Assembly (NCBI RefSeq): GCF_007655135.1
Contig: NC_045127.1
Span: 24,160,199 to 24,224,198 of the forward strand
Length of the DNA: 64,000 bases
Source: Punica granatum
Taxonomy: Eukaryota > Streptophyta > Magnoliopsida > Myrtales > Lythraceae
Direction: 5' to 3'
A program made the translations under genes and the position numbers. Positions 11,941-35,986 of this stretch are shown here, piece by piece. The notes under the pieces were generated by a model. It worked only from the letters and a program-made list of their open reading frames with translations, was not told the origin of the DNA and did no database searches. Numbering within the stretch: position 1 is the stretch's first letter; the number at the start of each line of letters is the position of its first letter.

Positions 11941-12028
11941 GTCGTAGGGGATAAACCATGGAATACAGGAAGAACAAGGATCTGATATGCATAGACTGTC
12001 AAGATAAATATAAGATCAACATGGAAGA

Positions 12029-12034
12029 TTTATT
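12029..12034 (-). terminator. Viral poly(A) signal, copy 1
   Basis: AATAAA on the minus strand, about 250 bases downstream of the TATA box in the same orientation. This gives the short terminal redundancy expected of a pararetroviral pregenomic RNA. Confidence 0.7.
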
Positions 12035-12283
12035 CAAACACTTAGCCCATGATGGGCCGAAGGGAGTACATGGTTTTTAAGAAAACAAAAGAAAACATGA
12101 AAATAAAAAGGAATGAGTCTGAAAGAACTCAATCCATGCTTACACTGGAACTTACACTCAGAAAGGGGGTTGGAGGATCCGGGTTATGGGAGTCGGATGA
12201 TTACATATCAGAAGAAAGAAAAGAGAAGAAGAGAGAATTATGTGTTGTGGAAGTGAGTCCCCCCTCGATGCTGGAAGGAGAGT

Positions 12284-12610
12284 CCTCTTATAGGCAGTGG
12301 TGGATGCCTTGTAGCTGTGCAGCCTTGAACTGTGCACTCACATGCGGGGTACTGTCGAGCTCAGCTGAAGAACTGTAGCTACAGTGACCTTTTTTGTCGC
12401 AAATAGTGACAGGAGGCTGCTTTATGTCGGGCACGCTCGCCGAAAGGTTTTTTGTCCGTTATGGTACCACTGTGAGTAGTGGTGGGACGCTTCCGGAGAT
12501 TGCGCTGATTATGTCGGGGCTTAGCCTTTTGAGCCGAAAGGTTTTTTGTCCGGTAATGATCCACGTGTCTGAGACGGTGGGCGGACGCTCTCGGTTGCTG
12601 GGGCTAGCAA
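12284..12610 (-). promoter_or_regulatory. Pregenomic RNA promoter, copy 1
   Basis: The minus strand carries a G-box (CACGTG) and two copies of CGGACAAAAAACCTTTCGGC about 94 bases apart, followed by the TATA box CTATAAGAGG at 12,293-12,284. The arrangement matches the regions at 20,742, 27,212 and 30,176. By analogy with the CaMV 35S promoter it should drive the full-length RNA. Confidence 0.75.
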
Positions 12611-14056
12611 TTATTCTGATGAGAAATCACTGTCGTCTTGTTCCCTGTGGGACTCTGAAGCAGACGAAGCAGTGTTCAAATCTTTGAGCTCTAGTAGAAC
12701 CTGACTGAGTCGCCCTATGTAATCCTCATCAGTTTTTGCTGCTGAAAGGAAGGACGAAGCGCGGGCTTTGACCTAGAGAAAGCTTTGGGGGTCCACTTGT
12801 GCCTTGTCTGAGACAAGAGCATTTTTACGGAACCAATTGAGAACAAATTGTGAGTCAAGATGATCTACCTTCAACGTAACCCACAATTTGCATTTGAAGA
12901 TTCTAGCCAGTGTCTGCAGGCCTGTCTGTTGATCAGGCTTGTATCCGAAAGACCAATTATGGACCCATGATAATCCAAAAATCTGGTAGAACTGGAGAAG
13001 CACGGGGAAAATGGTTTGATTCCCTTGAGGTTTGAATCGGGAAGCGAACATAGTGTAGGCTTCATGAATTACGGGAGGCAATATGTCTGGAATGGGACCC
13101 CAGATAGACCACCAGTGGGCAAACCAAAAGGGAAATACGGCCACCTTTTTGGAATGGAAAAAGATCAGCCAAGTGTGTCTGAACTCATGGTTTTGGTACA
13201 AAAATGCATTGTACCAGGCTTGCTGGTAATCCCAGTAGGAATACATAGCATTATGGGGGAGGTCTGACGAGAACCGGGCTTGGAATTTGTGGATTTGGTA
13301 TGGTTTTCCCTCATTCCATTCTCTCGGGTGGATCACTCTCAGGATTTTGGCTGTAGAGTGGGATATGGTGTTTGAGGAGCCAGGGACAAGGTGGTGTTTG
13401 AACTCAACTGAACCTGTATCACTCAAAATTTTCTCATAGTATTCCCGGGTTTTTGAAATGTCAAATGGCCGGAAATACCAATTTTCGGGAAACAATTTTG
13501 ATACAGCGAAGAAGGGATTTTCATGGTAAGAACCTTCTTCCATAATCAAAACAGTTTGGAATAATGATTTTGGAAACCATGGTGCTGTTTTTGAAGAGCT
13601 GGTTTCCTTATCGGAAAATGTTGTGAGACTTTTTTCTGCTCCTTTGGCAATTTGCCTAGAGCTCTCTCCCTTGCTAGTCTCCAGCAGAGGAGGAGATATT
13701 CCAGAAAGCACTTGTGCTAATTCTGGTTTATCTTTTAACACTGTAATCCATTGCTGGACTACGGTATCATTATCAAGATTATGAGGAGATGAACTCTGTT
13801 TTGCAAGAGTTTGTTTCTCCTTTTTGGGTTTAGGAATTTTACCTGGCAGAGTTTGCATGCAGCTCTGCTTATCGATCTCATGTTGGAGAGTCTGTCGATA
13901 GGTTTTTATCTGGCTATCAACAGTGATCTGTCCGATGGAAGGTTGGCCAGAGGCCTTATGGTGTGAGGATTGCTCCTCATTTTTTATCGACTAGCTGGGA
14001 GCCAGCTGTTTTGAGGCCGCAGCCTCTTTTTTCGAAGAACGAGTCCTCATGCTCAT
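12611..14056 (-). pseudogene. Component A ORF2 (unknown 481-aa protein), two premature stops
   Basis: This is the minus-strand copy of the intact ORF at 19,296-20,741, with the same 482 codons including stop. Its first ATG overlaps the RNase H stop as ATGA. TAG codons at 13,993-13,991 and 12,775-12,773 replace CAG codons of the intact sibling, so only a central open stretch (from an internal ATG at 13,858) remains. The product has no domain I recognise; it is rich in Trp, Phe and Tyr in the middle and Lys-rich near the N terminus. See the intact copy for description. Confidence 0.8.
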
Positions 14057-16675
14057 GGTGGTACCTGCAGGAATTCTCTTGTCAGGAAATCAGGGAGACT
14101 GTTTGTCTCACCTCTTATGAATTCGATGTCAAAATCAAATACACTCAAGATAGCTTGCCATCGGGCAAAAATCTGTTTTGATGCAATGTTTTGAACATCT
14201 TTTTGAAGAACCTCTTTTGCAGATTTGCAATCAATCCGAAGTAAAAACCTTTGGTTTAAAAGATCAGATTGAAATTTAGAAATGCAAAGAACCACAGCAA
14301 GAATTTCCTTTTTTATGGTTGAGTAATTCTTCTGGGTCGGGTTCCAATGTTTTGATGTGAACTGAACAACCTGTTCATGTCCATTTTTGGATTGTTTCAA
14401 GATTCCTCCGTATCTTTCATCAGAGGCGTCTGTTTCAACAATCTTTTTTGCAGATGGGTCTGCCAAGTGTAAACAAGGCAGAGTTTTGATTTGAAGCTCG
14501 ATTTGCTTCACAATGTTGGTTTGTTCATCCGTCCATGGTGGAGGAGAATTCTTTAACCTGTTATGGAGGGGTTTGCAGAGCTTACTTAGGCTAGGGAAGA
14601 AATCTACAACGTAGTTCAAACTTCCTAAGAACCTTTGCAGCTGTTTCTTATCATGGATTTGATCAGGGAACCTATCAGCAAACTGGATGGACCTGTTAAT
14701 GGGGATTATGGTGCCCCTGCTGATGTTGTGCCCTAGAAATCAAATTTTGGTTTGGAAAAGGCAGACTTTAGTCGGAGACACAGTCAAGCCATTTTTTGAA
14801 GTGATTCTCATAAAGTGCTTCCCATGTCTAAGATGAGAATCAGGATTTTTTGAGAATATGAGGACATCATCGATGTATACAATTATGAAATCGGAGTATT
14901 CACCAAAGATGTCATTCATGATTTTCTGAAATTCAGATGGAGCATTTTTGAGCTCAAAGGGCATCACATTCCATTCGTACTGGCCAAACGGAACTGTGAA
15001 TGCAGTTTTGTATTTGTCCTTTTCGGCGATTTGAATTTGCCAAAAACCTGACCTCATGTCGAATTTTTAAAATATTTTTGAATCATGAAGTCTTTGGAGC
15101 AAATCTTTTTTGTTAGGTATTGGGTACCTAATCCACCGTAAGGCTTGATTCAAAGGCTTGTAATTGATTACTAACCTGGGGACTCCTCTTTCCTGCTCAG
15201 CGTTTTTGTTCACGTAGAAGGCTGAACAACTCCAGGGAGACTTACTAGGCCTAATCAATTTTTTGTTCAAGAGGTCTTGGATTTCTACTTTACAGTGTCT
15301 TTCCAACTCTTGATTCATCTGAATGGGTTTGGCTTTTGTTGGGATATTTTTCTCATCGAAATCCTTTTCATAAGGTAGGTCGATGACATGTTGCTTCCTA
15401 TCCCAGAAAGCATTTGGGGTTTCTCCGCAAACTGACTCCTGAATCAGTCTGTTGAGATTATCGATTTTTTGTTTCCAATCTGGTTTTTGGAGCAAATTTT
15501 CAACATTATGGTGAATGATCTCATCTTTTACCAAACCTATTTGCCTCTCGGTTGCCTGTATCATGTCCAGATTCCTGGTTACAGGTTTTGTGATGAAAGG
15601 GAAAATGGTTTTGCTTCCTAAATACACCGTTTTTATGCCAGAGTTGGTGAGAAGGAAGGGTTTGATGAGCTGTATGAATGGGGTTCCTAGTATGACTTCT
15701 CTTTTTAAGTCTTGGACAACTAGGAAACCGGTTTTGTATGTTGAATCTTCATTTTTGACTTCTGCTTCTGCAATTTTATGTGTGACTTTCAATTTATTAT
15801 TGCTAGCAGAGCTTAAAGATTCATGGGTCAATTCACAATATTTTTTAGGGATTAATCCCTCCCTCACACAATTGGCGTCACCTGTGTCCAACAGGGCAGT
15901 TACTTCCATTTGGAAGTCGTTCACCTTGATTGTAGGTTTTAGGAGGTATTTCTGATGGGTGAATTCCTGGGTTTTACACTCAGGTTTGGGTTCAGCATTG
16001 TCCAAGGTCTGAACCAGCTTTTCATCGTTTTTTAGAGTTATCACTTCTTTATGGAGCTCATTGAGTTTTTGGCGAAGTTTTAACTCTGTTTGCATCCTTT
16101 CTTTCTCCCGGTTTTCATGCTCTATGGCTCGGGTGTTTTTGATCATCATGTTGAGTAACCTAAGGTTTTTGGTTTGCTCAGGTTCTTTTGGCTCAACATA
16201 TTTTGGAGGTGGTTTTGAGGAGACTACGGTTTTGTTGAAAGGTAGTTTCCATGTTATGGTATTTTCGGTGAATTTGAGAGCCTTTTCTTCCATGAAGAAT
16301 TGGTAGAACCAATCCCAGAAAAGGATGTTTTTCTCATTTTCATTCATCCAGTGGATCCATTGGGTTTGCATTATGGTCTCTACGTATTTTTGAGTAAAAA
16401 CCTCATGTAACCAATTTCTCCTTTTTTTCATTTTCTTTGGAGCAGAAGTCATTCCTAAGGATGGCTGAGGCTATTGAGAATGATTTCTCAATCACATAGA
16501 TCTCAGGGTTAGGATTGATTCTGGTCGTATCAGTTATGGATGAGAATGTGGGTGAAGGAGGCGAAGACTTAGTTTCATCTGTGATGGGGGCAGAGTACAC
16601 TGGTCTAGGAATATCGGTGACGACACTACTTATTTCTCTAAGGTTGGCAGTCCTAGGAGGGTTTTCAGTAGCTGT
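14053..16675 (-). pseudogene. Component A protease-reverse transcriptase-RNase H polyprotein, broken
   Basis: In order, this encodes a short region homologous to the N terminus of the component B polyprotein (shared NILFWDWF at about 16,320), a Glu/Lys-rich linker, an aspartic protease with DTG at about 15,888, a reverse transcriptase with the catalytic YIDD at 14,877-14,866, and an RNase H with the TDAS motif. No coat-protein domain or zinc knuckle lies between linker and protease. Breaks are a 2-base loss near 16,450 relative to component B (frame change), a TAA at 15,069-15,067, and a TGA at 14,742-14,740 where the sibling copy has CGA. The frame upstream of the shift is open back to the movement-protein stop and is in frame with it. 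Confidence 0.85.
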
Positions 16676-17632
16676 TTAGAAAGTGTTTCCCGATGGGGCA
16701 ACACTGAATGTTCTCCTTCTAAGCTCAGGGCTTCTAAAGGAGGAATTTATCGAAGGGGTCGAGGTTGACTGTATGTCGACTGATCTCCTATGGCGAAAGC
16801 TTATGGAAACTCTCCCATCTTGGAACTGGCTCACTCGACTAAGTTCCTCATTTTGAATTTTTTCAGGGGCAACTGCATCTTCTAGGACCCATTCTTCAGG
16901 AAGAGTTACCTCATTCCACCTAATTGGTCTGGGGACTACAGTGTTTGACCTGGCAATATCAGTTTGGAAAAGGAGGGTTTCTCCTTTGGGGCTATGATTG
17001 AAGGCTTTGGTTGCAAACGCTGAGACCATCGTTTTGTAATGGACTCTGTACACAAGGGCTAAAGGGATGGAGCCTAAAGCAATCTTGTAGTTGTGCGTTT
17101 TAATTTGCAGGGTCAAGCCATGGGTTATGTTTTGGTCTTTGAGGGACATGGTGAAATTTGGGAAACAGTTGAAATGGACTGGTCCGTCGCACAGACTAGT
17201 CTCGACTGTCCCAAGGATGGATTCATGGTAGTTCAAAAGCCTAGCATCCCTAAGCACTAGGAGTACTGAGGTATCTAAGCCTTCTCTGGTCAGGGATTTT
17301 ATGCCTACTTGGACAAGCCCTATATGAATGAAGTTGTATTTATCGTTATGTTTTTTCAGGGACTCTTGGTTCAAGAGTTTTATGGTTTGTGAAGAGTTTT
17401 TTAGGGGAATGTCCCGCTCTTCAGTTGTTATGGTATAATCTGTTTTTGAGAAAATTTGTTGGAATTTTGAGTTTTTATAAATCTGTTTTGAAGCGATTCT
17501 TAGGATCTCCCAATCATCGATAGATTTATCAAAACATTCCAAAATGACCTCTTCTCTATTGAGAACAGAATCATTATCGAAATTATTTTCAAAAGAACAT
17601 GTACTCGAAGAGCTTGCTTTAAACCAATCCAT
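16676..17632 (-). CDS. Viral movement protein (30K superfamily), component A
   Basis: The 318-aa frame begins just after the leader. It resembles caulimovirid 30K-type movement proteins, which enlarge plasmodesmata for cell-to-cell spread. The central region (residues about 100-215) has the alternating hydrophobic beta-strand pattern of the family and an Asp in LRDAR at residues 127-131. The C-terminal 60 residues are Ser/Arg rich and probably disordered. The TAA stop at 16,678 is followed in the same frame by open sequence leading to the protease-RT frame, so an ancestral fusion like the single polyprotein of petuviruses is plausible. This gene is absent from component B except for N-terminal remnants. 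The frame is intact; expression is unknown. Confidence 0.8.
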   Translation of the reverse strand: MDWFKASSSSTCSFENNFDNDSVLNREEVILECFDKSIDDWEILRIASKQIYKNSKFQQIFSKTDYTITTEERDIPLKNSSQTIKLLNQESLKKHNDKYNFIHIGLVQVGIKSLTREGLDTSVLLVLRDARLLNYHESILGTVETSLCDGPVHFNCFPNFTMSLKDQNITHGLTLQIKTHNYKIALGSIPLALVYRVHYKTMVSAFATKAFNHSPKGETLLFQTDIARSNTVVPRPIRWNEVTLPEEWVLEDAVAPEKIQNEELSRVSQFQDGRVSISFRHRRSVDIQSTSTPSINSSFRSPELRRRTFSVAPSGNTF

Positions 17633-18476
17633 ATTTCAAAAACAATAAACCTTCCAGTCTCTCAAACATTTATCAAGACTTTCTATACTTTTGCATATCA
17701 GTTCCCTATCCTTAGGGTATTCCATACCTATCCTAGACGAAAGCTCTACAGATCTATAGAACCAATAGCCTAGAAGTTTGAAGACGAGATGCTAAACCGT
17801 ATCAGATACTCCTACCCAGCTTATCTCAAGATCAAGATCGGACTAAGACATACCTTATTGGCAGAAATCCCACCTCACACAGTGTTTCCCTGCAGCATAT
17901 CTTAAACATACCTTGCCCAACTGCTGTACCTGGATTTAACAATAATAGTAGGAAGACAAATTCAAAAAAAACTCACCTCTCTATAGATATCCAAACCCTA
18001 TCCCAACTGCTGTCCCTAGACGAACGATAATGCACTAGGATAACTCTACTCCAGTCGGTAACCTCCATCTACTTAGACGGTGTTCATAACACTACCGGGC
18101 CATCGCATCCAATTTTTCCCCTGAACACTGCCCTACCCGTCGGGACTTACAAAACGGGGACACCTTAGGACTTCCCCCCGGGTTCCTATGAATGGTGAAT
18201 GTGTAGGGTCCATTAGAGCGACTGGATGGACATTAGAGCCTATTGCATTACTTCTTATGCTAGCATCAGTTCATTGTGATATTGGATCTAGACGCCTAAA
18301 GAGATAATGATCTATGTCCTCTTCCTATCGTGTTTACCAGCTTCAGTTCATTGTATAGGATATGCAAGAATACACTATTGGAAGAACACTACATGAGTTT
18401 CTACCAGCCATGAAGGCGGTCCTAGATGATATGACCTACGAGTTCTACTGGATCTGAGAATCTTAACGGAATATAC
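17633..18476 (-). promoter_or_regulatory. Viral leader, copy 1
   Basis: About 840 bases of untranslated leader between the primer-binding-site breakpoint and the movement-protein ATG. It is nearly identical to 21,451-22,300 and clearly related to 35,103-35,960, so components A and B share it. It includes a C/G-rich stretch (about 18,160-18,190) that could fold. Confidence 0.65.
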
Positions 18477-19299
18477 ATCGATGATGTCCTCATATTCTCA
18501 AAAAATCTTGATTCTCATCTTAGACATGTGAAGCACTTTATGAGAATCACTTCAAAAAATGGCTTGACTGTGTCTCCGACTAAAGTCTGCCTTTTCCAAA
18601 CCAAAATTCGATTTCTAGGGCACAACATCAGCAGGGGCACCATAATCCCCATTAACAGGTCCATCCAGTTTGCTGATAGGTTCCCTGATCAAATCCATGA
18701 TAAAAAAACAGCTGCAAAGGTTCTTAGGAAGTTTGAACTACGTTGTAGATTTCTTCCCTGGCCTAAGTAAGCTCTGCAAACCCCTCCATAACAGGTTAAA
18801 GAATTCTCCTCCACCATGGAGGGATGAACAAACCAACATTGTGAAGCAAATCAAGCTTCAAATCAAAACTCTGCCTTGTTTACACTTGGCAGACCCATCT
18901 GCAAAAAAGATTGTTGAAACAGACGCCTCTGATGAAGGATACGGAGGAATCTTGAAACAATCCAAAAATGGACATGAACAGGTTGTTCAGTTCACATCAA
19001 AACATTGGAACCCGACCCAGAAGAATTACTCAACCATAAAAAAGGAAATTCTTGCTGTGGTTCTTTGCATTTCTAAATTTCAATCTGATCTTTTAAACCA
19101 AAGGTTTTTACTTCGGATTGATTGCAAATCTGCAAAAGAGGTTCTTCAAAAAGATGTTCAAAACATTGCATCAAAACAGATTTTTGCCCGATGGCAAGCT
19201 ATCTTGAGTGTATTTGATTTTGACATCGAATTCATAAGAGGTGAGACAAACAGTCTCCCTGATTTCCTGACAAGAGAATTCCTGCAGGTACCACCATGA
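18477..19299 (+). pseudogene. Component A RT (3' part) and RNase H, plus copy
   Basis: The sequence starts inside the RT catalytic motif (IDDVLIFSK) and runs to the RNase H stop. It lacks everything upstream: movement protein, protease and the first half of RT. One extra A in an A-run at about 18,702-18,708 shifts the frame in the RT thumb region compared with copy 1. From 18,670 the RNase H part is open to its TGA at 19,297-19,299 and contains the TDAS motif. The left edge is a head-to-head junction with copy 1. Confidence 0.85.
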
Positions 19300-20741
19300 G
19301 CATGAGGACTCGTTCCTCGAAAAAAGAGGCTGCGGCCTCAAAACAGCTGGCTCCCAGCCAGTCGATAAAAAATGAGGAGCAATCCTCACACCATAAGGCC
19401 TCTGGCCAACCTTCCATCGGACAGATCACTGTTGATAGCCAGATAAAAACCTATCGACAGACTCTCCAACAGGAGATCGATAAGCAGAGCTGCATGCAAA
19501 CTCTGCCAGGTAAAATTCCTAAACCTAAAAAGGAGAAACAAACTCTTGCAAAACAGAGTTCATCTCCTCATAATCTTGATAATGATACCGTAGTCCAGCA
19601 ATGGATTACAGTGTTAAAAGATAAACCAGAATTAGCACAAGTGCTTTCTGGAATATCTCCTCCTCTGCTGGAGACTAGCAAAGGAGAGAGCTCTAGGCAA
19701 ATTGCCAAAGGAGCAGAAAAAAGTCTCACAACATTTTCCGATAAGGAAACCAGCTCTTCAAAAACAGCACCATGGTTTCCAAAATCATTATTCCAAACTG
19801 TTTTGATTATGGAAGAAGGTTTTTACCATGAAAACCCCTTCTTCGCTGCATCAAAATTGTTTCCCGAAAATTGGTATTTCCGGCCATTTGACATTTCAAA
19901 AACCTGGGAATACTATGAGAAAATTTTGAGTGATACAGGTTCAGTTGAGTTCAAACACCACCTTGTCCCTGGCTCCTCAAACACCATATTCCACTCTACA
20001 GCCAAAATCCTGAGAGTGATCCACCCGAGAGAATGGAATGAGGGAAAACCATACCAAATCCATAAATTCCAAGCCCGGTTCTCGTCAGATCTCCCCCATA
20101 ATGCTATGTATTCCTACTGGGATTACCAGCAAGCCTGGTACAATGCATTTTTGTACCAAAACCATGAGTTCAGACACACTTGGCTGATCTTTTTCTATTC
20201 CAAAAACGTGGTCGTATTTCCCTTTTGGTTTGCCCACTGGTGGTCTATCTGGGGTCCCATTCCAGACATATTGCCTCCCGTAATTCATGAAGCCTACACT
20301 ATGTTCGCTTCCCGATTCAAACCTCAAGGGAATCAAACCATTTTCCCCGTGCTTCTCCAGTTCTACCAGATTTTTGGATTATCATGGGTCCATAATTGGT
20401 CTTTCGGATACAAGCCTGATCAACAGACAGGCCTGCAGACACTGGCCAGAATCTTCAAATGCAAATGGTGGGTTAAGTTGAAGGTAGATCATCTTGACTC
20501 ACAATTTGTTCTCAATTGGTTCCGTAAAAATGCTCTTGTCTCAGACAAGGCACAAGTGGACCACCAAAGCTTTCTCCAGGTCAAAGCCCGCGCTTCGTCC
20601 TTCCTTTCAGCAGCAAAAACTGATGAGGATTACATAGGGCGACTCAGTCAGGTTCTACTGGAGCTCAAAGATTTGAACACTGCTTCGTCTGCTTCAGAGT
20701 CCCACAGGGAACAAGACGACAGTGATTTCTCATCAGAATAA
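19296..20741 (+). CDS. Component A ORF2, unknown 481-aa viral protein (intact)
   Basis: The ATG overlaps the RNase H stop as ATGA, which suggests coupled or reinitiated translation, and fixes the start. Residues 1-150 are Lys/Ser/Gln rich and look disordered. Residues about 165-420 form a compact aromatic-rich domain with motifs such as YSYWDYQQAW and FAHWWSIWGP. The C terminus (about 425-481) is predicted helical, Ser/Asp/Glu rich and acidic. No transmembrane segment or known enzyme motif is visible. Its place after RNase H matches the ORF that encodes the transactivator/inclusion-body protein in some Caulimoviridae, but I see no sequence proof. It has no recognisable counterpart in component B. 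Confidence 0.75.
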   Translation: MSMRTRSSKKEAAASKQLAPSQSIKNEEQSSHHKASGQPSIGQITVDSQIKTYRQTLQQEIDKQSCMQTLPGKIPKPKKEKQTLAKQSSSPHNLDNDTVVQQWITVLKDKPELAQVLSGISPPLLETSKGESSRQIAKGAEKSLTTFSDKETSSSKTAPWFPKSLFQTVLIMEEGFYHENPFFAASKLFPENWYFRPFDISKTWEYYEKILSDTGSVEFKHHLVPGSSNTIFHSTAKILRVIHPREWNEGKPYQIHKFQARFSSDLPHNAMYSYWDYQQAWYNAFLYQNHEFRHTWLIFFYSKNVVVFPFWFAHWWSIWGPIPDILPPVIHEAYTMFASRFKPQGNQTIFPVLLQFYQIFGLSWVHNWSFGYKPDQQTGLQTLARIFKCKWWVKLKVDHLDSQFVLNWFRKNALVSDKAQVDHQSFLQVKARASSFLSAAKTDEDYIGRLSQVLLELKDLNTASSASESHREQDDSDFSSE

Positions 20742-21417: not shown

Positions 21418-21427
21418 TGGGTAGAAA

Positions 21428-25617: not shown

Positions 25618-25627
25618 CCATTGCTTC

Positions 25628-27211
25628 ATGTCTACATACAGGAACATGGAATTCCCCTGGTTTGACCAAGGGGACAATGGCTCCTCTTCCAGGAGTAAAA
25701 AACATAATCATCAGGATCTGCCTCCAAAAAAGCGATTCTGCATAAAGTCCAGCCTCACGGCTTGGCGGCCTGATCACAGGCAACAACTCATCTTGGATGA
25801 TTTATGGGCTTCCATAAAGAATCCTCAAAAGGGTGAGGAATCCATAAACGCATTGGTCCTTCATATGGAGGAACAAGGCAACAGCAAAGCATCCTTGCAG
25901 CAGGAGCTTTGCCTGAAAATCGATTCGCTGCAACAAGAGCTATCCCTCCAAAAAGCTCAGACTCAAGCTTTCCTCCAGAACAGGTTAGTTGAGTTCGATA
26001 ATTTCACAAAGCACTTTGCAGAAATGCAGAGAGAAAATCATGCTCTATTGAAAAAATTGAAAAAGAGTGAAAAAAGGAGAGGTATTCTTGAAAAAGAAAA
26101 TGAAGGCTTCAAAAAAGAAATTGAAAGCCTCTGTGCGGAAAGAATAGAAGTCTTAGAGTTTTCTGAGTCCTGCCTCAGAGAAAAAGACGCTCTTGATAAT
26201 GAAAATAAAAAATTAAAGCAGGATTTGGAGTCCCTATCAACTCCATCGATAAATCAGTCTATAGTTCCCATCATCGGAAGTAGGACTGAAGAAATGTTTT
26301 CGAAAAAACCCATTGAGGTAACTCTCAGTGGCATTTTCCCCAGAGCAGGAGAGATCCTGTTCCTTTCAAAACTTCCTGACGATATTGTCTTAAAAATATC
26401 TGAGACGAGTCTTCAGGATTTTACTACAACCATGATTTCCTTTTTCAAAAGACTCCTTCAGTTCTGTGCTTGCTCACAAAAAGGAATTGACGGATGGTTT
26501 TGGAATTGGGAAAGAAAAAACCATTTTCAAAATGATTTTCCACAACCCTGTGATCAACACGAGGAAGACGATGCTTTTGAAAGGGCTGATATCTTACTCA
26601 TGAACGGTTGCAGACATGTCCTGGAATTCTCGATCCCCAGGATAAGTTTTTATGTTTTCCCTTTTAAAGATAAATTTTATAAACACCATTTCGATTTTTG
26701 TGATCTTCTGAAATACGGAGTCCTTAAATCCATAATCTTAAAACCAGAGGATGAACATCGACCAGAGTACCAATCTCTCTTTGGAGATAATGCTTGGGGA
26801 TTGATCAAAAAGTTCCTACGTCGATCTGCCAGCCTCTTCATCTGCATTGAATCCTCTCCCCCAGAGTGGATTTCCCCCATAAAAGTCCAGCCTGCTATCC
26901 ATTACATTTTCATCTCTCCGGTAAGTTCAAGAAGCATTCTCACTCCGGAGGCAAAGTTTTGGCCAGCAGACGGACCGATAACCAACCAGATCAGCGATTG
27001 GCGAGCCTGGGTTCAGGTAAACGAATGGCACTGGCGTAAATACCCAGAGCATATTCTCCAGTTCTCAGGTAACTACCAAAGGGTTTTCCTGCATATCTCT
27101 CTCATCGACTTACCAGCTCAACCAGGGTTCAGCACAAGGCATGATTTCCTGATTGACAAGTACGAGGAGGAGTTCTTACTGGATGCCCAAAATTCTCATC
27201 GCCAATACTGA
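25628..27211 (+). CDS. Component B ORF3, unknown 527-aa coiled-coil protein (intact)
   Basis: It starts 10 bases after the ORF2 stop, a spacing identical in copy 4, which supports this start. Residues 1-60 are basic with a KKRF cluster. Residues about 75-200 are a strong coiled coil (heptads of Leu, Glu, Lys and Gln). Residues about 220-527 form a globular, aromatic-rich domain. No membrane segment or catalytic motif is evident. A coiled coil followed by a globular domain would suit a virion-associated, inclusion-body or transactivator role, but that is conjecture. The protein does not resemble component A ORF2. Confidence 0.75.
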   Translation: MSTYRNMEFPWFDQGDNGSSSRSKKHNHQDLPPKKRFCIKSSLTAWRPDHRQQLILDDLWASIKNPQKGEESINALVLHMEEQGNSKASLQQELCLKIDSLQQELSLQKAQTQAFLQNRLVEFDNFTKHFAEMQRENHALLKKLKKSEKRRGILEKENEGFKKEIESLCAERIEVLEFSESCLREKDALDNENKKLKQDLESLSTPSINQSIVPIIGSRTEEMFSKKPIEVTLSGIFPRAGEILFLSKLPDDIVLKISETSLQDFTTTMISFFKRLLQFCACSQKGIDGWFWNWERKNHFQNDFPQPCDQHEEDDAFERADILLMNGCRHVLEFSIPRISFYVFPFKDKFYKHHFDFCDLLKYGVLKSIILKPEDEHRPEYQSLFGDNAWGLIKKFLRRSASLFICIESSPPEWISPIKVQPAIHYIFISPVSSRSILTPEAKFWPADGPITNQISDWRAWVQVNEWHWRKYPEHILQFSGNYQRVFLHISLIDLPAQPGFSTRHDFLIDKYEEEFLLDAQNSHRQY

Positions 27212-27858
27212 ATGCAAAGCCCCAGCAACCGAGAGCGTCCGCCCACTGTCTCAGACACGTGAATCATTACCGGACAAAAAACCTTTCGGCTCAAAAGGCT
27301 AAGCCCCGACATAATCAGCGCAATCTCTGGAAGCGTCCCACCACTACTCACAGTGGTACCATAACGGACAAAAAACCTTTCGGCGAGCGTGCCCGACATA
27401 AAGCAGCCTCCTGTCACTATTTGCGACAAAAAGGTCACTGTAGCTACAGTTCTTCAGCTGAGCTCGACAGTACCCCGCATGTGAGTGCACAGTTCAAGGC
27501 TGCACAGCTACAAGGCATCCACCACTGCCTATAAGAGGACTCTCCTTCCAGCATCGAGGGGGGACTCACTTCCACAACACATAATTCTCTCTTCTTCTCT
27601 TTTCTTTCTTCTGATATGTAATCATCCGGCTCCCATAACCCGGATCCTCCCACCCCCTTTCTGAGTGTAAGTTCCAGTGTAAGCATGGATTGAGTTCTTT
27701 CAGGCTCATTCTTCTTTCTTTTCATGTTTTCTTTTGTTTTCTTAAACATCATGTACTCCCTTCGGCCCATCATGGGCTAAGTGTTTGAATAAATCTTCCA
27801 TGTTGATCTTATATTTATCTTGACAGTCTATGCATATCAGATCCTTGTTCTTCCTGTA
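27212..27858 (+). promoter_or_regulatory. Viral promoter/poly(A) region after component B
   Basis: It repeats the block at 20,742: G-box, two GGACAAAAAACCTTTCGGC copies, TATA box CTATAAGAGG (27,529-27,538) and AATAAA (27,788-27,793). Homology stops at 27,858 after TTCCTGTA, about 27 bases before the poly-pyrimidine CCCCTACG that precedes the primer-binding site in other copies. Confidence 0.8.
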
Positions 27859-27904: not shown

Positions 27905-29428
27905 AGACTATCGTCTTGCAGCAGTTCAAATAGCCAATTGTGTAACCACTCTTGAGCAGATTCCACAGCCATTTCCTGCATGAGATGTATCAGTCTATTT
28001 TGTAAACACATTTATCAGAGACAAAATGGAATTTTATTTTGTTTCCAAGCCTGTGCGTTTCAATGCCAGATGCAGTGACAAGAAACGGTTTTAAAAGCTG
28101 GATGAATGGGGTTCCTAGTATGACCTTATGACTAAGGTTTTTTACCAGGAGGAATGATGTTTTGTACTGGACTCTATTCTGTTCAACTTCTACTTTGCTC
28201 AACTTATGCTGAATGTCAAGCTTAGTACCACTAACCGAAGAAAGTGATTCAGTTGTTCTTTCATAGAATCTGGCAGGAATGAGTTATTCATTAATGCAGT
28301 TTTCATCTGCACCTGTGTCAAATAGAGCAGTTGCATCAATAAACAGATTATGGCTTATGACAAGCGTTATTTTGATTAACCATCTGTTAGGAGAAAGGTC
28401 TCCCATCATGGTTAGGTTTTTATGCTGGTCATCTTTTGTCTGGTCCAGGGCCAGAGTCTCCTCTGGGTTTTTATCCTGTTTCATGAGGGCTTGTTCAGAG
28501 CTTGCTGAGGGTTTTGCTGCCTCAGTGAAGAGCTCTTCCAAACGCCTAATTATCGTGGAGTGATGTTGTTGTTCAATCTTGAGACAAACAATCTCACTCC
28601 TGAGATTATCGATTTCCTTTTGGGCATCAAACGAGGTTTTATGGGCTCGCTTCTGGTCATGCCTTTTAAGGATTTCAGAGAGGTTGTAATTAGGGGTTTT
28701 GGTCTCGCTGTCGAGATTGCCCTGTTGCAACTTCTCAAGATATTGTTTTCTCAACAGAGGGTTCTGGATTTCATCTGCTATTCCGAGCAAGAATTCTTGA
28801 TCCCTAGTTAAGACATTTATGGACTTTTCATCGGACGACCAATCCAGTTCATCAAACTGCAAGCTCTCTTCGCTGGCAGTCGAGAATTCCGTCTCAGAGT
28901 CAGAAGACTCTATCAATAGATTGCAGATTTGGTCTTTTATGTCATCATCAATTTCAAGTTGATGAATCTTTTTGTTGAGGTAGCAATACCTCTGGGTATG
29001 GCCAGTTTTCCCGCACTTGAAACACTTAAAGGATTTTTTCTCACCCTTATCAGTGGTCTGTGGTTTTGAGGGAATTCTAGACTTTTTATGGAAATGTTTG
29101 GGCTTATGTTTTCTGCTGCAGTCCCCACTGCAGGTTTTGGTTTTTTCGACCTTTTTGTCGACCTGAAAAGAGGGATCGAATTGCTGACAAAAACTGCCAA
29201 GCTCTTTCCTGGTCTGGGCCTTTTCCATTTTCAATTGTTTTTGGAGTTTGTGCTGAGTACACATTCGGATACCTTCCTTATGGATGAAGCTGATGAGCTC
29301 TCCATAACTCAGTTCTTTGTAAGGTATCTGGCCATGATTTATGGATTTGATTTCGTTCCGAACTTGTTCTCCTAACAAGGTTGGCAGACCCGCTAAGAAT
29401 TTTTCTTTCCAAAACGGCTGGTTACAAT
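27905..29428 (-). pseudogene. Copy 3: component B coat-protease fragment
   Basis: Reverse-complement match to about 23,815-25,335. It covers the second half of the coat protein, the zinc knuckle, the coiled coil and the protease, plus the start of ORF2, and lacks promoter and N terminus. The protease part is broken by a stop near 28,284 (after the DTGA region) and the frame resumes at 28,202-27,990. The zinc knuckle is conserved. Confidence 0.85.
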
Positions 29429-29440
29429 GCCTGTCGATTG

Positions 29441-29484
29441 AAAGAATCATTACTAGTATATATTAAAACTAGTAATGATTCTTT
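29441..29484. repeat. Perfect 16-bp inverted repeat at a viral junction
   Basis: AAAGAATCATTACTAG (29,441-29,456) is the exact inverse of 29,469-29,484, with a 12-base AT-rich loop. The right arm is part of the 22-bp direct repeat that flanks copy 4. Confidence 0.85.
29462..29483. repeat. 22-bp direct repeat, left side of copy 4
   Basis: An exact match to 35,987-36,008. The pair brackets the copy 4 provirus and looks like a target-site duplication. Confidence 0.8.
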
Positions 29485-29596
29485 GATACCATTTCCAACC
29501 AGAGATCTATACGTAGGGGATAATCATGGAATACAAGAAGAACATGGATCTGATATGCATAGACTGTCAAGATAAATATGAGATCGACATGGAAGA

Positions 29597-29602
29597 TTTA
29601 TT
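29597..29602 (-). terminator. Viral poly(A) signal, copy 4
   Basis: AATAAA on the minus strand, about 260 bases after the TATA box in the same direction. Confidence 0.7.
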
Positions 29603-29857
29603 CAAACACTTAGCCCATGATGGGCTGAAGGGAGTACATGAGTTTGAAACAAACAAAAGAAGAAGACATTAAAATAAAAGGAAAGAGTCTGTAAGGACTC
29701 AATCCATGCTTACACTGGCACTTACACACAGAAAGGGGGTTGGAGGATCCGGGTTATGGGAGCCGGATGTTTACATATGGGAAGAGATAAGAGAGGAAGA
29801 GAAGAAGAGTGAATTATGTGTTGCGGGTGTGTCCTCTCCGATGCTGGAGGAAGAGCA

Positions 29858-30176
29858 CTCTTATAGGCAGTGGTGGATGCCTTGTCGCTGTGCAGCTTTA
29901 CACTGTGCACTCACATGCGGGGTACTGTCGAGCTCAGTGGAAGAACTGTAGCTACAGTGCCTTTTTTGTAGCAAAAGGTGACAGGAGGCTGCTTTATGTC
30001 GGGCACGCTCGCCGAAAGGTTTTTTGTCCGTTATGAGACCACTGTGAGTAGTGGTGGGACGCTTCCGGAGATTGCGCTGATTATGTCGGGGCATAGCCTT
30101 TTGAGCCGAAAGGTTTTTTGTCCAGTAATGATCCACGTGTCTGAAACAGTGGGCGGACGCTCTCGGTTGCTGGGGG
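29858..30176 (-). promoter_or_regulatory. Pregenomic RNA promoter, copy 4
   Basis: It contains the G-box, the two GGACAAAAAACCTTTCGGC elements and a TATA box (TATAAGAG, about 29,866-29,858). The sequence is slightly diverged from the other three copies, but these elements are conserved. Confidence 0.75.
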
Positions 30177-31766
30177 CTAGATGCCGTATTGGCGGTGATC
30201 GCGCTGAGCTTCTAGCAAGAACTCCTCTTCGAACTTATCAATCAGGAAGGCATGCCTTGTGCTGAATCCTGGTTGAGCTGGTAAGTCGACGAGAGAGATA
30301 TGCAGGAAAACTCTTTGGCAGTTACCTGAGAACTGGAGAACATGCTCTGGGTATTTACGCCAGTGCCATTCGTTTACCTGAACCCAGGCTCGCCAGTCGC
30401 TGATCTAGTTTGTTATCAGTCCATCTGCTGGCCAGAACTTTACCTCCGGGGTGAGAATGCTCCTCGAACTTACCGGAGAGATAAAAATGTAATGGATAGC
30501 AGGTTGAACTTTTATGGGGGAGATCCATTCCGGTGGAGTGGATTCTATGCTGATGAAGAGGCTGGACGATCGACGTAGGGACCTTTTGATTAATCCCCAA
30601 GCATTATCTCCGAAAAGAGACTGGTACTCCGGTCGATGCTCATCCTCTGGTCTCAGAATTATGGATTTGAGAACTCCATATTTCAGGAGATCACAAAAAT
30701 CAAAATGGTGATTATAAAATTTATCTTTTAATGGAAAAACATAAAAACTTATCCTGGGGATCGAGAATTCCAGGATATGCCTGCAACCATTCATGAGTAG
30801 GATGTCAGTTCTTTCAAAATCATCATCTTCCTCGTGTTGGTCACAGGGTTTTGGAAAATCATTTTGAAAATGGTTTTTTCTTTCCCAATTCCAAAACCAT
30901 CCGTCAATTCCTTTTTGTGAACATGCACAGAAATGAAGGAGTTTTTTGAAAAAGGAAATGGTGGTTGTAGTAAAATCCTGGAGACTTGTCTCAGAAATTT
31001 TTAAGACGATATCTTCAGGAAGTTTTGAAAGGAACAGGATTTCTCCTGCTCGCGGGAAGACGCCACTGAGAGTTACTTCAATGGGTTTTTCCCAAAACAG
31101 TTTTTCAGTCTGGTTTCCGATGGGGGGAACCACAGACTGATTTATCGATGGAGTTGATAAGGACTCCAAATCCTGCTTTAATTTTTTATTTTCATCATCA
31201 AGAGCGTCTTTTTCTCTGAGGCAGGACTCAGAAAAATCTAAGACTTTTATTCTTTCCGCACATAGGCTTTCTATTTCTTTTTTGAAGCCTTCATTTTCTT
31301 TTTCGAGAATACCTCTCCTTTTTTCGCTCTTTTTCAATTTTTTCATTAGAGCATGATTTTCTCTTTGCATTTCTGCAAAGTGCTCTGTGAAATTATCGGA
31401 CTCTACTAACCTGTCTTGGAGGAAAGCTTGAGTCTGAGCTTTTTGGAGGGATAGCTCTTGTTGCAGCGAATCGATTTTCAGGCAAAGTTCCTGCTGCAAG
31501 GACGCTTTGCTGTTGCTTTGTTCCTCCATGTGGAGAACCAATGCATTTATGGATTCCTCACCCTTTTGAGGATTCTTTACGGAAGACCATAAATCATCCA
31601 AGATGAGTTGTTGCCTGTGATCAGGCCGCCAAGCCGTGAGGCCGGACTTTATGCAGAATCGCTTTTTTGGAGGCAGATCCTGATGTTTATGGGTTTTGTT
31701 CCTGGAGGAGGAACCTTTATCGACCTGGTCAAACCAGGGGAGATCCATGTTCCTGTATACAGACAT
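30177..31766 (-). pseudogene. Component B ORF3 coiled-coil protein, copy 4 (one premature stop)
   Basis: The frame matches the intact 527-aa plus copy: basic N terminus, long coiled coil (residues about 75-200) and globular C-terminal domain. A TAG at 30,407-30,405, where the sibling has CAG, ends it after 453 residues. The reading frame then stays open to TAG at 30,179-30,177, so a single base change separates it from full length. It starts 10 bases after the ORF2 stop. Confidence 0.8.
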
Positions 31767-31776
31767 GAAACAATGG

Positions 31777-32166
31777 TTATGGCAGATTAATGTTTAAATG
31801 GACTCTTACAGGAGCCTGTAAGGCCAGGTGGCCTATGAATAGCTCATAGTCCTCCCGGGTTTTTAAAGTGGAGTTGATGTGCTGAAAACAAGGTTTTGTA
31901 TTGCAACGAGGGATTTCTTTGCAATGCTTGTTAAAATAAGCACACAACACATGGGATACAGGATGATCGATGAGGGCACAGATTTTGTGGATGTACGAAG
32001 TGAATATACGATCCATAGAGTCTGTTTCCCCGTCCTGTATGTCCTTTTGGATTTTCTCAAGACTTTCGTCTTGCCACAGTTCTAACAGCCAATGGTGTAA
32101 CCACTCTTGAGCAGATTCCACGGCCATTTCCTGCGCAAAATACATCAGTCTATCTTGTAAATGCAT
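31777..32166 (-). CDS. Component B ORF2, unknown 129-aa protein (copy 4)
   Basis: Intact homologue of the frame at 25,228-25,617, with the same length and the same 22-base overlap with the coat-protease frame. The stretch LEKIQKDIQDGETDSMDRI is nearly unchanged, while the N terminus and the last third vary. No domain is recognised. Confidence 0.65.
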   Translation of the reverse strand: MHLQDRLMYFAQEMAVESAQEWLHHWLLELWQDESLEKIQKDIQDGETDSMDRIFTSYIHKICALIDHPVSHVLCAYFNKHCKEIPRCNTKPCFQHINSTLKTREDYELFIGHLALQAPVRVHLNINLP

Positions 32167-35102
32167 TTGTCAGAGACAAAAAAGAATTTTATTTTGTTTC
32201 CAAGCCTGTGCGTTTCGATGCTAGATGCTGTGACAAGAAACGGTTTTAAAAGCTGGATGAATGGGGTTCCTAGGATGACCTCATGATTAAGGTTTCTGAC
32301 TAGGAGGAATGACGTTTTGTACCGGACTCTATTTTGTTCAACTTCTACTTCGCTCAACTTATGCTGGATGTCGAGCTTAGTACCACTGACCGAAAAAAGT
32401 GATTCAGTTGTTTTTTCATAGAATCTGACAGGGATGAGTTGTTCACGAATGCAGTTTTCGTCTGCACCTGTGTCAAACAGAGCAGTTGCATCAATAAACA
32501 AATTATGGTTTATGACTAGCTTGATTTTGATCAACCACCTGTTAGGAGAGGGTTCCCCTATCATGGTTAAGGCTTTCTGCTGGTCATTTTTTGGTTGGTC
32601 CAGGGCCAGAGTGTCCTCTGGGTTTTTATCCTGGGTCATGAGGACTTGTCTAGAGCTCCCTGCCTCTGCAACGAACTCTTCGAGACATCCAATTATGGTG
32701 GAGTGCTGCTGCTGTTCAAATCTGAGGCAAGCAAGCTCACTCCTGAGATTATCGATTTCTTTTTGGGCATCAAACGAGGTTATGTGAGCTCGTTTTTTGC
32801 CATGTCTCTTCAGGATTTCTGATAAGTTATAATTAGGGGTTTTGATCTCGGCTTCGAGAGTGCCCTGATTTAACTTTTCAAGATATTGTGTTCTTAACAA
32901 AGGGTTTTGGATTTCTCCTGCTATTTCAAGCAGGAATTCTTGGTCCTTAGTTAAGACGTTTATCGATTTTGACTCTGACGACTGTTCATCAGACGACCAG
33001 TCAAGTTCATCCATTTGCAGACTCTCCTCGCTGGCAGTCGAGAAGTCCGTTTCAGAGTCGGATAACTCTGTCAACAGATTGCAGATTTGGTCTTTTATGT
33101 CATCATCAATCGCCAGTTGATGAATCTTTTTGTTGAGGTAACAATACCTTTGGGTATGGCCAGTTTTCCCGCACCTGAAACACTTAAAGGGGGAGATGGA
33201 CTTTCCCTTTTCCTTATCAGTGACATGTGGTTTTGAGAGAATCCTAGATTTTTTATGGAAATGTTTGGGCTTATGTTTTCTGCTGCAGTCCCCACTGCAG
33301 GTTATGGGTTTGTCGACCTTTTTGTCAACCTGGAAAGAGGGATCGAATTGTTGGCAGAAGCTGCCAAGCTCTTTCTTGGTCTGGGCCTTTTCTTTTTTCA
33401 ATTGTTTTTGGAGTCTGTGCTGAGTACACATTCGGATACCTTCCTTATGGATGAAGCTGATGAGCTCTCCATAACTCAGTTCTCTGTAAGGTATCTGGCC
33501 ATGATTTATGGTTTTGATTTCGTTTCGGACTTGTTCTCCTAACAAGGTTGGCAGACCTGCTAAGAATTTTTCTTTCCAAAACGGCTGGTTGCAATCCTCC
33601 CTAGACATGACCCTAGTGAGAAAGGTATCTTTGTACTGTCTGAAGTCAGACAGCCTTTTGCATTTTAGGTTTGACAGCAGCTCTAGGTTTTTGTCTTTGA
33701 GGTGAGAGGGGTCTCCTACGAAGTGTTGGGAGATGGCAAAGACTAGAGTTGCTACGGCGTCAGGGATGTCTTCGTTGTTAGCATCCCAGATGATCTCACC
33801 AGATTCATCTGTCTTGACGCTGGTCAGGATTTCATTTTGTTGGAAGGGAGAAAGGTAGTTGTCCCACCATCCCTTCAATTGGCCTGTGAACCCTGCTATG
33901 AGCATGTGTGCTATGGCTGGGTCCGACAATCGGGTCTGGGTCTTGTAAGCATTTGACACCATCGTCATTTGCTGTAAGACGCTCAGAATGTTATATTCAG
34001 ACTGCCCGTCTATGTTCCACTCATAGATGGCATTGGCACTATACCTATTCTGGACAATGTTTGGTTTTTCTTCCAAAACTAGGTCTGGTGCACTTATCGT
34101 AGTGTAGTAGGGTTTTTGGGGTTCCTTCCACACTAATGCTTCTAAATCTCCAGAATTATGGATGGCGTTGACGACATTCGAGCCCTGAGACTCTTGTGTC
34201 TTGATTTTTGTTGCTCTTAATGGGGTTCCTGGCTCTTTTTCGGAAAGAGGAGTTTCCGGGATGACCATTTTTTGCAAGCTTATGGATGGGGAATTTTCTT
34301 GGAGATTTATGGATTTTAGTCTTCTCTCTATTTCCTGCCTAAACTCTTGTTTCCTAGAGATAGGAATTTCATGTGGTTTAAAGGGAGGTTTTTTGAGAGA
34401 CTCTATGGCTACAGGCTTCAATTGGTTCGACTGACTAGAGGTCTTTACCTGGTTGACAACAGGTCTGGTGACTTCTTGTTCTATCCTATCCAATTGGGAA
34501 CCTATGGTGTGGAGACACTGGTTTGTGAAATTATTTTGTTCAAAGATGTTTTTTATGTCTTTGGGTTCCAGTGAATTGTCCACTTTTACTTTGAAGGGAG
34601 AGGCCTTGACCTCTGCTTTTTGATGAATTATTTGGATGGTTCCTAAAGGTAGGTGTGTGGACTCAACCGGGTCTGCATTCGCAAGATCCCACATTATGGT
34701 TTTCTGAGTTACACATACCATTCTTTTAGGTGCGAAATGATTTTCAAACCAATCCCAAAATAGGATATTGTTGGAGTTTTTTAGCACGAATGTTGTCCAT
34801 TCTACCCTGATATGAGATTTGGTATATTCTTCGGAGAATGTCTCATGGAGCCATCTCCTTTTATGATCATTATGGGGTGCTAGGAAATCACTCCTAAGCT
34901 TATCGTAATCTATCTCAAATTTCTCGACTGCTGCGTCTTCCCTAGGGACACTCGACACAGACAGTGCTATCTGAGCTCTACATTCAGCTAATTTTTGGTT
35001 TATTCTATCCTGAAAAGAATTTCTTCTGTAGATAGAATGATTATCGATTATGTGGTGAGAACCTACGCATGCATGTGGAGGAATATTTTTAAAGAGACCC
35101 AT
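32145..35102 (-). CDS. Component B ORF1: coat protein and aspartic protease, intact 985 aa
   Basis: This is the longest intact viral frame in the window. I choose the ATG at 35,102 (MGLFK); an in-frame ATG at 35,195 exists only because a TGA in the leader of sibling copies reads CAA here. Order: N-terminal region with NILFWDWF, coat core with LKGWWDNYLSPF at about residue 411, Lys-rich segment, CX2CX4HX4C zinc knuckle at about 639-652 (genome or pregenome binding), acidic Ser/Asp/Glu tract, coiled coil, and aspartic protease with DTGA at about 876 and ILGTPFIQ downstream. The frame ends right after the protease, where related polyproteins continue into RT. The first residues resemble the movement-protein N terminus of component A. 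Confidence 0.85.
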   Translation of the reverse strand: MGLFKNIPPHACVGSHHIIDNHSIYRRNSFQDRINQKLAECRAQIALSVSSVPREDAAVEKFEIDYDKLRSDFLAPHNDHKRRWLHETFSEEYTKSHIRVEWTTFVLKNSNNILFWDWFENHFAPKRMVCVTQKTIMWDLANADPVESTHLPLGTIQIIHQKAEVKASPFKVKVDNSLEPKDIKNIFEQNNFTNQCLHTIGSQLDRIEQEVTRPVVNQVKTSSQSNQLKPVAIESLKKPPFKPHEIPISRKQEFRQEIERRLKSINLQENSPSISLQKMVIPETPLSEKEPGTPLRATKIKTQESQGSNVVNAIHNSGDLEALVWKEPQKPYYTTISAPDLVLEEKPNIVQNRYSANAIYEWNIDGQSEYNILSVLQQMTMVSNAYKTQTRLSDPAIAHMLIAGFTGQLKGWWDNYLSPFQQNEILTSVKTDESGEIIWDANNEDIPDAVATLVFAISQHFVGDPSHLKDKNLELLSNLKCKRLSDFRQYKDTFLTRVMSREDCNQPFWKEKFLAGLPTLLGEQVRNEIKTINHGQIPYRELSYGELISFIHKEGIRMCTQHRLQKQLKKEKAQTKKELGSFCQQFDPSFQVDKKVDKPITCSGDCSRKHKPKHFHKKSRILSKPHVTDKEKGKSISPFKCFRCGKTGHTQRYCYLNKKIHQLAIDDDIKDQICNLLTELSDSETDFSTASEESLQMDELDWSSDEQSSESKSINVLTKDQEFLLEIAGEIQNPLLRTQYLEKLNQGTLEAEIKTPNYNLSEILKRHGKKRAHITSFDAQKEIDNLRSELACLRFEQQQHSTIIGCLEEFVAEAGSSRQVLMTQDKNPEDTLALDQPKNDQQKALTMIGEPSPNRWLIKIKLVINHNLFIDATALFDTGADENCIREQLIPVRFYEKTTESLFSVSGTKLDIQHKLSEVEVEQNRVRYKTSFLLVRNLNHEVILGTPFIQLLKPFLVTASSIETHRLGNKIKFFFVSDKCIYKID

Positions 35103-35962
35103 ATTTTGAAAACAATAAACCTTCCAGCCTATCAAACATTTATCAAGACTTTCTATACTTTTGCATATCAGTTCCCTATCCTTGAGGTATTCCATACCTA
35201 TCCTAGACGAAAGCTCTACAGATCTAATAGAACCATTAGCCTAGAAGGTAGTTCAAAGATGCTATACCGTATCAGATACTCCTACCCAGCTTCTCTCAAG
35301 ATCAAGATCTAAGACTTACCTGGATGAACGGCAGATTCCTCACACAGTTTCTCCCTGCAGACTCTTAACACATCCCTAACCAACTGCTGTACCTGGTTTT
35401 AACAATAATAGTAGGAAAACAAATTCAAAAAACTCACTCACTCTTTGAGAGATCTATATAGACCCATACCCAACTGCTGTACCTCTACGAACGGTAATGC
35501 CCTAGGATAACTCTACTCCAGTCGATAACCTCCATCTACTTAGACGGTGTTCATAACACTACCGGGATTCTTTCCAATTTTTCCTCTGAAGACTGCCCTA
35601 ACCGTCGGGACTTACAAAACGAGGACACCTTAGGACTTCCCCCCGGGTTACTACAAACGGTGAATGTGTAGGGTCCATTAGAGCGACTGGATGGACATTA
35701 GAGCCTATTGCACTACTTCTTTTGTGAGCATCAGTTCATTGTGGATGGATCTAGAAACCTAAAGAGACCGTGATCTATGCCTTCTTCTTATTATGTTTAC
35801 CAGCTTCAGTTCATTGTATAGGATATGCAAGAATACACTATTGGGAGAACATTACATGAGTTTCTACCAGCCATGAAGGCGGTCCTAGATGATATGACCT
35901 ACGAGATCTGCATGGATCTAAGTAACTCAAACGGAATATACATCCTATCCCCACCTAGTCTT
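35103..35962 (-). promoter_or_regulatory. Viral leader, copy 4
   Basis: About 860 bases homologous to the component A leader but with many more differences than between copy 1 and the plus block. Confidence 0.65.
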
Positions 35963-35975
35963 GGCTTTGATACCA
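35963..35975 (-). promoter_or_regulatory. Primer-binding site of component B
   Basis: The minus strand reads TGGTATCAAAGCC, one base different from the site at 21,428 (G to A at the ninth position). It still fits initiator tRNA-Met over most of its length. Confidence 0.7.
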
Positions 35976-35986
35976 TACAGATCTCC

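Follow-up and report, generated by a model that had tools for sequence, protein, structure and literature searches.

Endogenous virus copies in pomegranate with movement and replication genes on one component and the coat gene on another, probably from a bipartite florendovirus-like caulimovirid

A 64,000-nucleotide stretch of the pomegranate (Punica granatum) genome (positions 24,160,199 to 24,224,198 of contig NC_045127.1, hereafter the window) was compared with itself, and the cluster between positions 11940 and 35976 proved to be almost wholly caulimovirid DNA. It comprises five pieces belonging to two kinds of unit, here called component A (copies A1 and A2) and component B (copies B3 and B4, and a fragment), with A2 running seamlessly into B3 at a primer-binding site (21428). 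Pfam scans and searches of six-frame pieces divided the genes between the components: the movement protein (MP), reverse transcriptase (RT) and RNase H were found in A only, the coat and its CCHC zinc knuckle in B only, and the protease and DUF7588 in both, while no integrase was present among the Pfam families listed for either. Jointly, A and B carry the domain set of the Caulimoviridae (30K MP, caulimovirid coat, aspartic protease (AP), RT and RNase H1), and the cluster very probably consists of endogenised copies of a bipartite, florendovirus-like, reverse-transcribing DNA virus of this family. An earlier note on this DNA had described A as MP, protease, RT, RNase H and a second open reading frame (ORF2) without coat or zinc knuckle, B as coat with zinc knuckle, protease and two further proteins without RT, and both units as about 6.5 kb long; the domain searches bear out the two gene contents, and the lengths of A1 and B4 agree (Table 1).

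Among the six-frame pieces of the window, MP was detected in A1 alone (next best E 0.067), as was the N-terminal part of RT; both A copies gave RNase H, for which the next best match was in B4 (E 0.88), and neither A piece yielded coat or CCHC. The A1 piece with YIDD lies in a frame of its own, separate from the flanking pieces, the RT end of A2 matched RVT_1 at 2.1e-11, and the DUF7588 match of A1 was weak (0.0065, under the family cut-off). The protease motif reads DTGD in A1 and DTGA in 22/30 A and 23/30 B loci from the genome survey described below, the other 14/60 giving no motif. A2 ORF2, counted from its first methionine, encodes 481 residues (55.8 kDa) at an offset of 2 from the RNase H frame; no Pfam family matched it, and its structure model, built from a two-row alignment (pLDDT 32), was left out of the fold searches. 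The 5' half of A is a single copy in the window (A1), a gap filled by 30 MP loci from the whole genome.

In component B, the Pfam families were DUF7588, DUF7746, Caulimovir_coat and RVP; coat and CCHC occurred in all three B pieces, the protease in B pieces as well as in A1, and MP, RT and RNase H were found in neither B3 nor B4. The first frame of B4 stops 32 residues past the RVP match (903-999 of 1031), as expected from the earlier claim that the first B frame ends right after the protease. B3 and B4 share one layout at a synonymous divergence (dS) of 0.32-0.60, with ratios of nonsynonymous to synonymous change (dN/dS) of 0.14-0.38: 0.22 (bootstrap upper limit 0.30) for DUF7746-coat-protease, 0.25 (0.43) for ORF X, 0.14 (0.21) for ORF Y and 0.38 (0.68) for the N-terminal part. 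From these ratios, X and Y most likely are genuine genes, and B replicated as an entity with this layout before the B3 and B4 lineages separated. Residues 94-209 of B3 ORF Y are predicted to form a long helix (coiled coil), in a model of low overall confidence (two-row alignment, pLDDT 41) that was also left out of the fold searches. Homology of ORF2 with Y or X was not detected by hhalign with weak two-row profiles (probabilities 0.4% and 0.7%).

Table 1. Viral pieces, reading frames and shared elements of the cluster (window coordinates)
Feature	Position	Strand	Remarks
Component A, copy A1	11940..18479	-	nearly full unit, 6.54 kb
A1 common region, 3' part	11964..12603	-	TATA-like 12285, poly(A)-like 12027
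A1 ORF2	12773..13990	-	97% aa to A2; further pieces 12614-12772, 13994-14089
A1 RNase H	14053..14739	-	RT_RNaseH_2 2.9e-26
A1 RT piece with YIDD	14743..15066	-	RVT_1 1.7e-26; best PDB match 8r0s, 7e-27
A1 frame with DUF7588, aspartic protease, RT N-terminal part	15067..16470	-	without coat or CCHC
A1 MP frame	16676..17635	-	start codon 17633; Pfam MP 1.9e-24
A1 common region, leader part	17640..18434	-	adjoins ORF1 start; 786/795 identical to B3
Component A, copy A2, 3' half	18472..21438	+	RT end, RNase H, ORF2, common region; 98.8% to A1
A2 ORF2 frame	19263..20741	+	492 aa; frame differs from RNase H
Primer-binding site TGGTATCAGAGC	21428..21439	+	exact word at A2-B3 junction
Component B, copy B3	21428..27858	+	88.1% to B4 over 6485 columns
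B3 ORF1, N-terminal frame with DUF7588	22304..22699	+	start codon 22306
B3 ORF1 frame: DUF7746, coat, CCHC, protease	22928..25249	+	
B3 ORF X	25228..25617	+	15 kDa; dN/dS 0.25 vs B4
B3 ORF Y	25607..27211	+	62 kDa; dN/dS 0.14 vs B4
B3 common region, 3' part	27220..27858	+	
Component B, fragment	27905..29428	-	coat, CCHC, protease, start of X; 99.1% to B3
Component B, copy B4	29480..35976	-	second B lineage; about 6.5 kb, bounded by primer sites
B4 ORF Y	30405..31793	-	end in further piece 30180-30404
B4 ORF X	31777..32169	-	
B4 ORF1 frame: DUF7588, DUF7746, coat, CCHC, protease, then stop	32145..35240	-	start codon 35103

The two components share a common region. Likeness between the units begins shortly past the last stop codon, at 8 bases in A2 and at 9 in B3, and holds as far as the start codon of ORF1 (17633, 22306 and 35103 in the window); elsewhere the units resemble each other in no more than a stretch of about 70 bases in the protease gene (78-81%). 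Between A1 and B3, 20 of 1434 common-region sites differ (identities of 98.9% and 98.3%), which is not significantly more than the 6 of 640 sites that differ between the 3' parts of A1 and A2 (Fisher p = 0.52), and B3 and B4 differ at 163 of 1455 sites. The proteases of A and B, in contrast, share 48-51% of their amino acids and the DUF7588 parts 38-44%, against 88% and 77% between B3 and B4, indicating that the coding parts are old, separate lineages while the common region has been kept alike. All four 3' parts contain TATA-like and poly(A)-like words; the earlier note had described promoter, poly(A) signal and leader as common to A and B.

The 12-base primer word, which we take to be the complement of tRNA-Met, recurs at both ends of B4, with one mismatch at one of them and two at the other, and A1 lacks it at either end. 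With at most one mismatch it was found in the 1.5 kb before MP in 22/30 A loci (19 of them at 838-874 nt before ORF1), whereas 40 shuffled words reached at most 2/30. With two mismatches, it is at most weakly enriched in the window (9 occurrences, 4.4 expected).

The host genome (320.4 Mb, 474 contigs) was searched with five queries, which yielded at least 130 matches for the A1 MP frame (125/267 candidates scored), 150 for DUF7746-coat (150/160), 150 for RT (150/2789), 43 for the 3' part of the common region (40/232) and 83 for Y (81/210). The distance tables took in 94/130 MP, 123/150 coat, 97/150 RT and 81/83 Y rows; the rows left out were short extra fragments and an RT tail at 48% identity or less, many of whose members lie in long frames and look like retrotransposons. 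In the best 30 MP loci of the 130 matches, read for about 1.5 kb downstream, MP was followed by DUF7588 in 30, by the protease in 28 (1023-1039 nt past the MP domain), by the start of RT in 28 and by the coat in none; a B coat piece lies upstream of MP at one locus (L028), and B pieces occur on the opposite strand at two others (L030, L038). In the best 30 coat loci of the 150 matches, read for about 1.5 kb on each side, DUF7588 preceded the coat in 27 and was followed by CCHC (n = 29), protease (n = 27) and X (n = 27), with no MP, RT start or RNase H in any of them.

The same division was evident in the spacing of the matches listed. At 75% identity or more, 69 MP-RT pairs lay within 5.5 kb on the same strand, mostly about 1615 nt apart, and 47 of the 53 full-length MP matches had an RT match 1-2.5 kb downstream. 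For Y, 64 of the 81 matches lay 1.0-2.4 kb after a coat match, and none followed MP within 5 kb. Same-strand pairs of MP before coat within 3.5 kb and of coat before RT were found once each, giving two possible one-unit pairs among the 106 listed coat matches at 75% identity or more, and each was read as an A piece beside a B piece: the MP-coat pair (L075) is a truncated A beside a B, with two DUF7588 matches, and the coat-RT pair (L028) a B piece beside an A. The expectation that many insertions of either type, and none joining coat and RT in one close unit, should be found was thus confirmed among these matches.

Linkage of the listed matches at 30 kb gave 95 insertion clusters, of which 43 held both types, 34 B only and 18 A only. 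On eight large contigs, 61 of 101 listed coat matches lay within 20 kb of an A match, compared with 0.96 under uniform placement and 1.0 after shifts of 0.3-1 Mb, revealing that A and B were often captured jointly in the host genome.

Trees of the coding and common regions gave contrasting pictures. A protease tree of 46 rows (22/30 A and 24/31 B, each with a stop-free match of 100 residues) split A and B once, with support of 100/100. The common-region tree was built from the last 400 bases of 50 rows (27 A, 23 B), after leaving out 11 of 61 (3 A, 8 B) that had no match of at least 300 bases reaching the start codon. It required 16 changes between A and B labels, close to the shuffled mean of 16.6 (243/500 shuffles were as low); its well-supported branches force at least 11 changes, and a single A clade was rejected (approximately unbiased (AU) test, p = 3.6e-10). 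Many close A-B pairs on this tree come from the same insertion cluster, but when each 200-kb cluster was reduced to a single row (30 rows; four picks made at random), 9-11 changes remained, 5-6 of them forced (shuffled mean 9.9-10.0), and a single A clade was rejected in all four picks (AU p ≤ 1.3e-4). Within each type, common-region distances were correlated with those of the coding genes (MP in A, r = 0.64, 27 rows, p = 0.0005; coat in B, r = 0.52, 22 rows, p = 0.0005). The earlier note had anticipated parallel divergence of protease and leader, and this is what is seen, in the form of common-region clades holding both A and B: the protease splits once, and the leader mixes the types while following the coding divergence within each.

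MP and coat were both under purifying selection: median dN/dS was 0.10 for MP (159/210 pairs with dS > 0.10; 21/30 frames unbroken) and 0.05 for coat (348/378 pairs; 28/30 frames unbroken), values that are biased downward because the best-scoring loci were chosen.

At two loci, L073 and L074, a single stretch contains MP, DUF7746, coat, CCHC, protease, RT and the beginning of RNase H, with coat and CCHC between MP and protease. They are distant from the A/B virus (RT 67-69%, coat about 46-48%, MP 34%), their layout is probably the ancestral one, and the match tables suggest further partial one-unit relatives. A single unit of MP, coat, protease and RT as the main form, which according to the earlier note would speak against two segments, was therefore encountered among the listed matches only in distant relatives. 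The RT of these two loci is far better conserved relative to the A/B virus than their MP. Another distant MP-RT pair (G000:C2:15324791-15326466, minus strand; MP 40%, RT 62%, 1071 nt apart), with no coat match between, is perhaps an older A-like unit. No relative was confirmed in IMG/VR with coat-frame, RNase H or RT pieces, and none with a 27-base common-region word.

The main rival to a bipartite virus is that A was an autonomous virus, its capsid unrecognised in ORF2 or borrowed, and B a satellite virus with its own coat, living on the RT and MP of A. The lack of replication and movement genes in B, the excess of B-only over A-only clusters among the listed matches and an ORF2 without known family or usable structure model are all compatible with such dependence. 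Against this, the coat domain and CCHC were not detected in A1 or A2, nor the coat in any of the best 30 MP loci; the distant one-unit relatives hold coat and CCHC between MP and protease, and the common regions of A and B have been mixed many times, so we consider a satellite unlikely. The presence of those relatives in the same genome could also suggest that A and B arose by deletion from a monopartite virus that helped both, and multiplied as defective passengers. This is highly improbable, as the distance between the A and B proteases, compared with that between the B lineages, marks A and B as old separate lineages, the shared layout of B3 and B4 has persisted under constraint at the dS given above, and no close one-unit copy occurs among the 106 coat matches listed.

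The mixing on the common-region tree might, alternatively, have arisen by recombination between insertions in plant chromosomes instead of during virus replication, given that A and B share almost no other stretch and that many copies of both lie side by side. We regard this as very unlikely to account for the pattern: mixing remains with one row per 200-kb cluster, the likeness fills the whole common region from just past the last stop to the start codon, common-region distance follows coding distance, and the reciprocal gene content and purifying selection would be left unexplained.

Besides the bias in the dN/dS medians, several points weigh against a bipartite virus. It is known here from genomic copies alone, and trans-complementation is something that we infer; a capsid or movement function may be hidden in ORF2, X or Y, and some of the mixing of common regions could stem from repeat-to-repeat exchange within the host genome. 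All genome match counts are lower bounds, the distance correlations take in near copies from shared clusters, and 18/95 clusters hold A only and 34/95 B only. A one-unit RNase H would sit farther away than the 1.5 kb read at the B loci, and B is judged to lack it from copies B3 and B4 and from the occupation of its position by X and Y. Odd orders were also met, with RT 907 nt before coat in one case (C6) and 2984 nt before Y in another (C3), both taken for compound insertions as judged from the match tables. Near pairs in the window gave higher dN/dS (A1-A2 ORF2 0.47 and RNase H 0.84; B3-fragment coat 0.36), mostly as expected for decay after insertion, and also noisy.

On balance, we think it likely that the virus was obligately bipartite and its split fully reciprocal, one component carrying the movement and replication genes and the other the coat, with protease and DUF7588 doubled. 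The two components would have diversified side by side in many strains, exchanging the common region repeatedly, as a successful and lasting genome design and not a failed attempt. The earlier inference of trans-complementing segments is supported as regards the two segments, and complementation would have worked as follows. Two circles of about 6.5 kb would carry one shared common region with promoter, poly(A) signal, tRNA-Met primer site and long leader. The RT and RNase H of A would copy both RNAs from the shared primer site, the MP of A would move both components and the coat of B would pack them, the shared primer site and leader allowing RT and coat to act on both RNAs, while each component would keep its own protease, most likely to cut its own polyprotein. 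Template switching or recombination may have kept the common regions alike within a strain, their mixing being visible on the tree, and the two components often entered the host genome together.

Some features of the flanks were also recorded. The same 22 bases occur on both sides of B4 (29462-29483 and 35987-36008), immediately past its 3' primer site and, at the other end, 11 bases beyond the 5' one. They resemble a target-site duplication, an unexpected feature in a virus family that lacks integrase. The outer flanks of the cluster (about 11895-11930 and 35990-36025) share a 33-base inverted similar stretch (88%), and the viral array may thus sit in, or have duplicated, one target. Adjoining the cluster, RVT_1, zf-RVT and RVT_3 pieces (36133-38817, minus strand) are arranged as in a decayed non-LTR (long terminal repeat) retrotransposon, and a large inverted repeat pair (1082-5831 and 58763-63998, 67-83% in pieces) lies outside the cluster at the window ends.

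Among known divided genomes, bipartite begomoviruses and nanoviruses work in a similar way, their unlike components having in common a region that matches within each strain; these viruses differ in having single-stranded DNA and rolling-circle replication, and no kinship is known. In the Caulimoviridae, as the earlier note mentioned, bipartite genomes have been proposed for some endogenous florendoviruses, and the text of PMC4241990 (Geering et al. 2014) names them in grape, rice and sorghum (VvinBV, VvinDV, OsatBV, SbicV). PMC10377300 adds beet, the grape components were recovered by a pipeline in PMC9719215, and PMC5766536 cites the proposal; the word bipartite is absent from the main text of PMC13308828, PMC9794742, PMC11359110 and PMC10458927. 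These fossil cases consist of reconstructed genomes and surveys of component loci, and according to the texts of PMC4241990 and PMC10377300 no divided genome is known in extant Caulimoviridae or elsewhere in the Ortervirales.

The pomegranate virus resembles the bipartite florendoviruses, as described in the text of PMC4241990, in its component sizes (5.5-6.9 kb in the published cases), a nearly identical intergenic region (more than 90% between A and B, as between A1 and B3) and compound A+B insertions. It also resembles them in an A without all or part of the coat domain and a B without RT (coat in 0/30 best A loci and RT in 0/30 best B loci, within about 1.5 kb), and in B being commoner than A, which that text reports for Oryza and which appears here as 34 B-only against 18 A-only clusters. 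The published B, according to the same text, is one polyprotein with MP, coat protein (CP) and AP and an extension homologous to ORF2, whereas the pomegranate B has no MP in B3, B4 or the best 30 B loci and two separate ORFs in which the weak two-row profiles detected no similarity to the ORF2 of A. Monopartite florendoviruses (such as LjapAV) and Petunia vein clearing virus (Petuvirus), as described in PMC4241990, share with it MP, CP with zinc finger, AP, RT and RNase H and a tRNA-Met primer site, with an extra ORF2 in florendoviruses, but hold all domains in one unit. L073 and L074 have that layout too. Two florendovirus traits recur here, a second ORF of 45-58 kDa usually in another frame than ORF1 (A2 ORF2) and a tRNA-Met primer site at the genome start (the A2-B3 joint and 22/30 A loci).

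The virus is therefore a variant of a known, still hypothetical kind, set apart from the published forms by their text descriptions. In our literature search, of text only and with the beet work taken via PMC10377300, we met no virus described as having MP on one component and coat on the other; this arrangement, the two extra B genes and the exchange of common regions on a tree are new with respect to the text of PMC4241990. Individual genomic copies here show a cleaner split than the earlier fossil cases, and the tree test tells co-evolution from chance deletion, as the coding gene divides A from B once and the common region mixes them many times. The same test is applicable to grape, rice, sorghum and beet, so that it becomes directly testable whether reverse-transcribing viruses can be multipartite.

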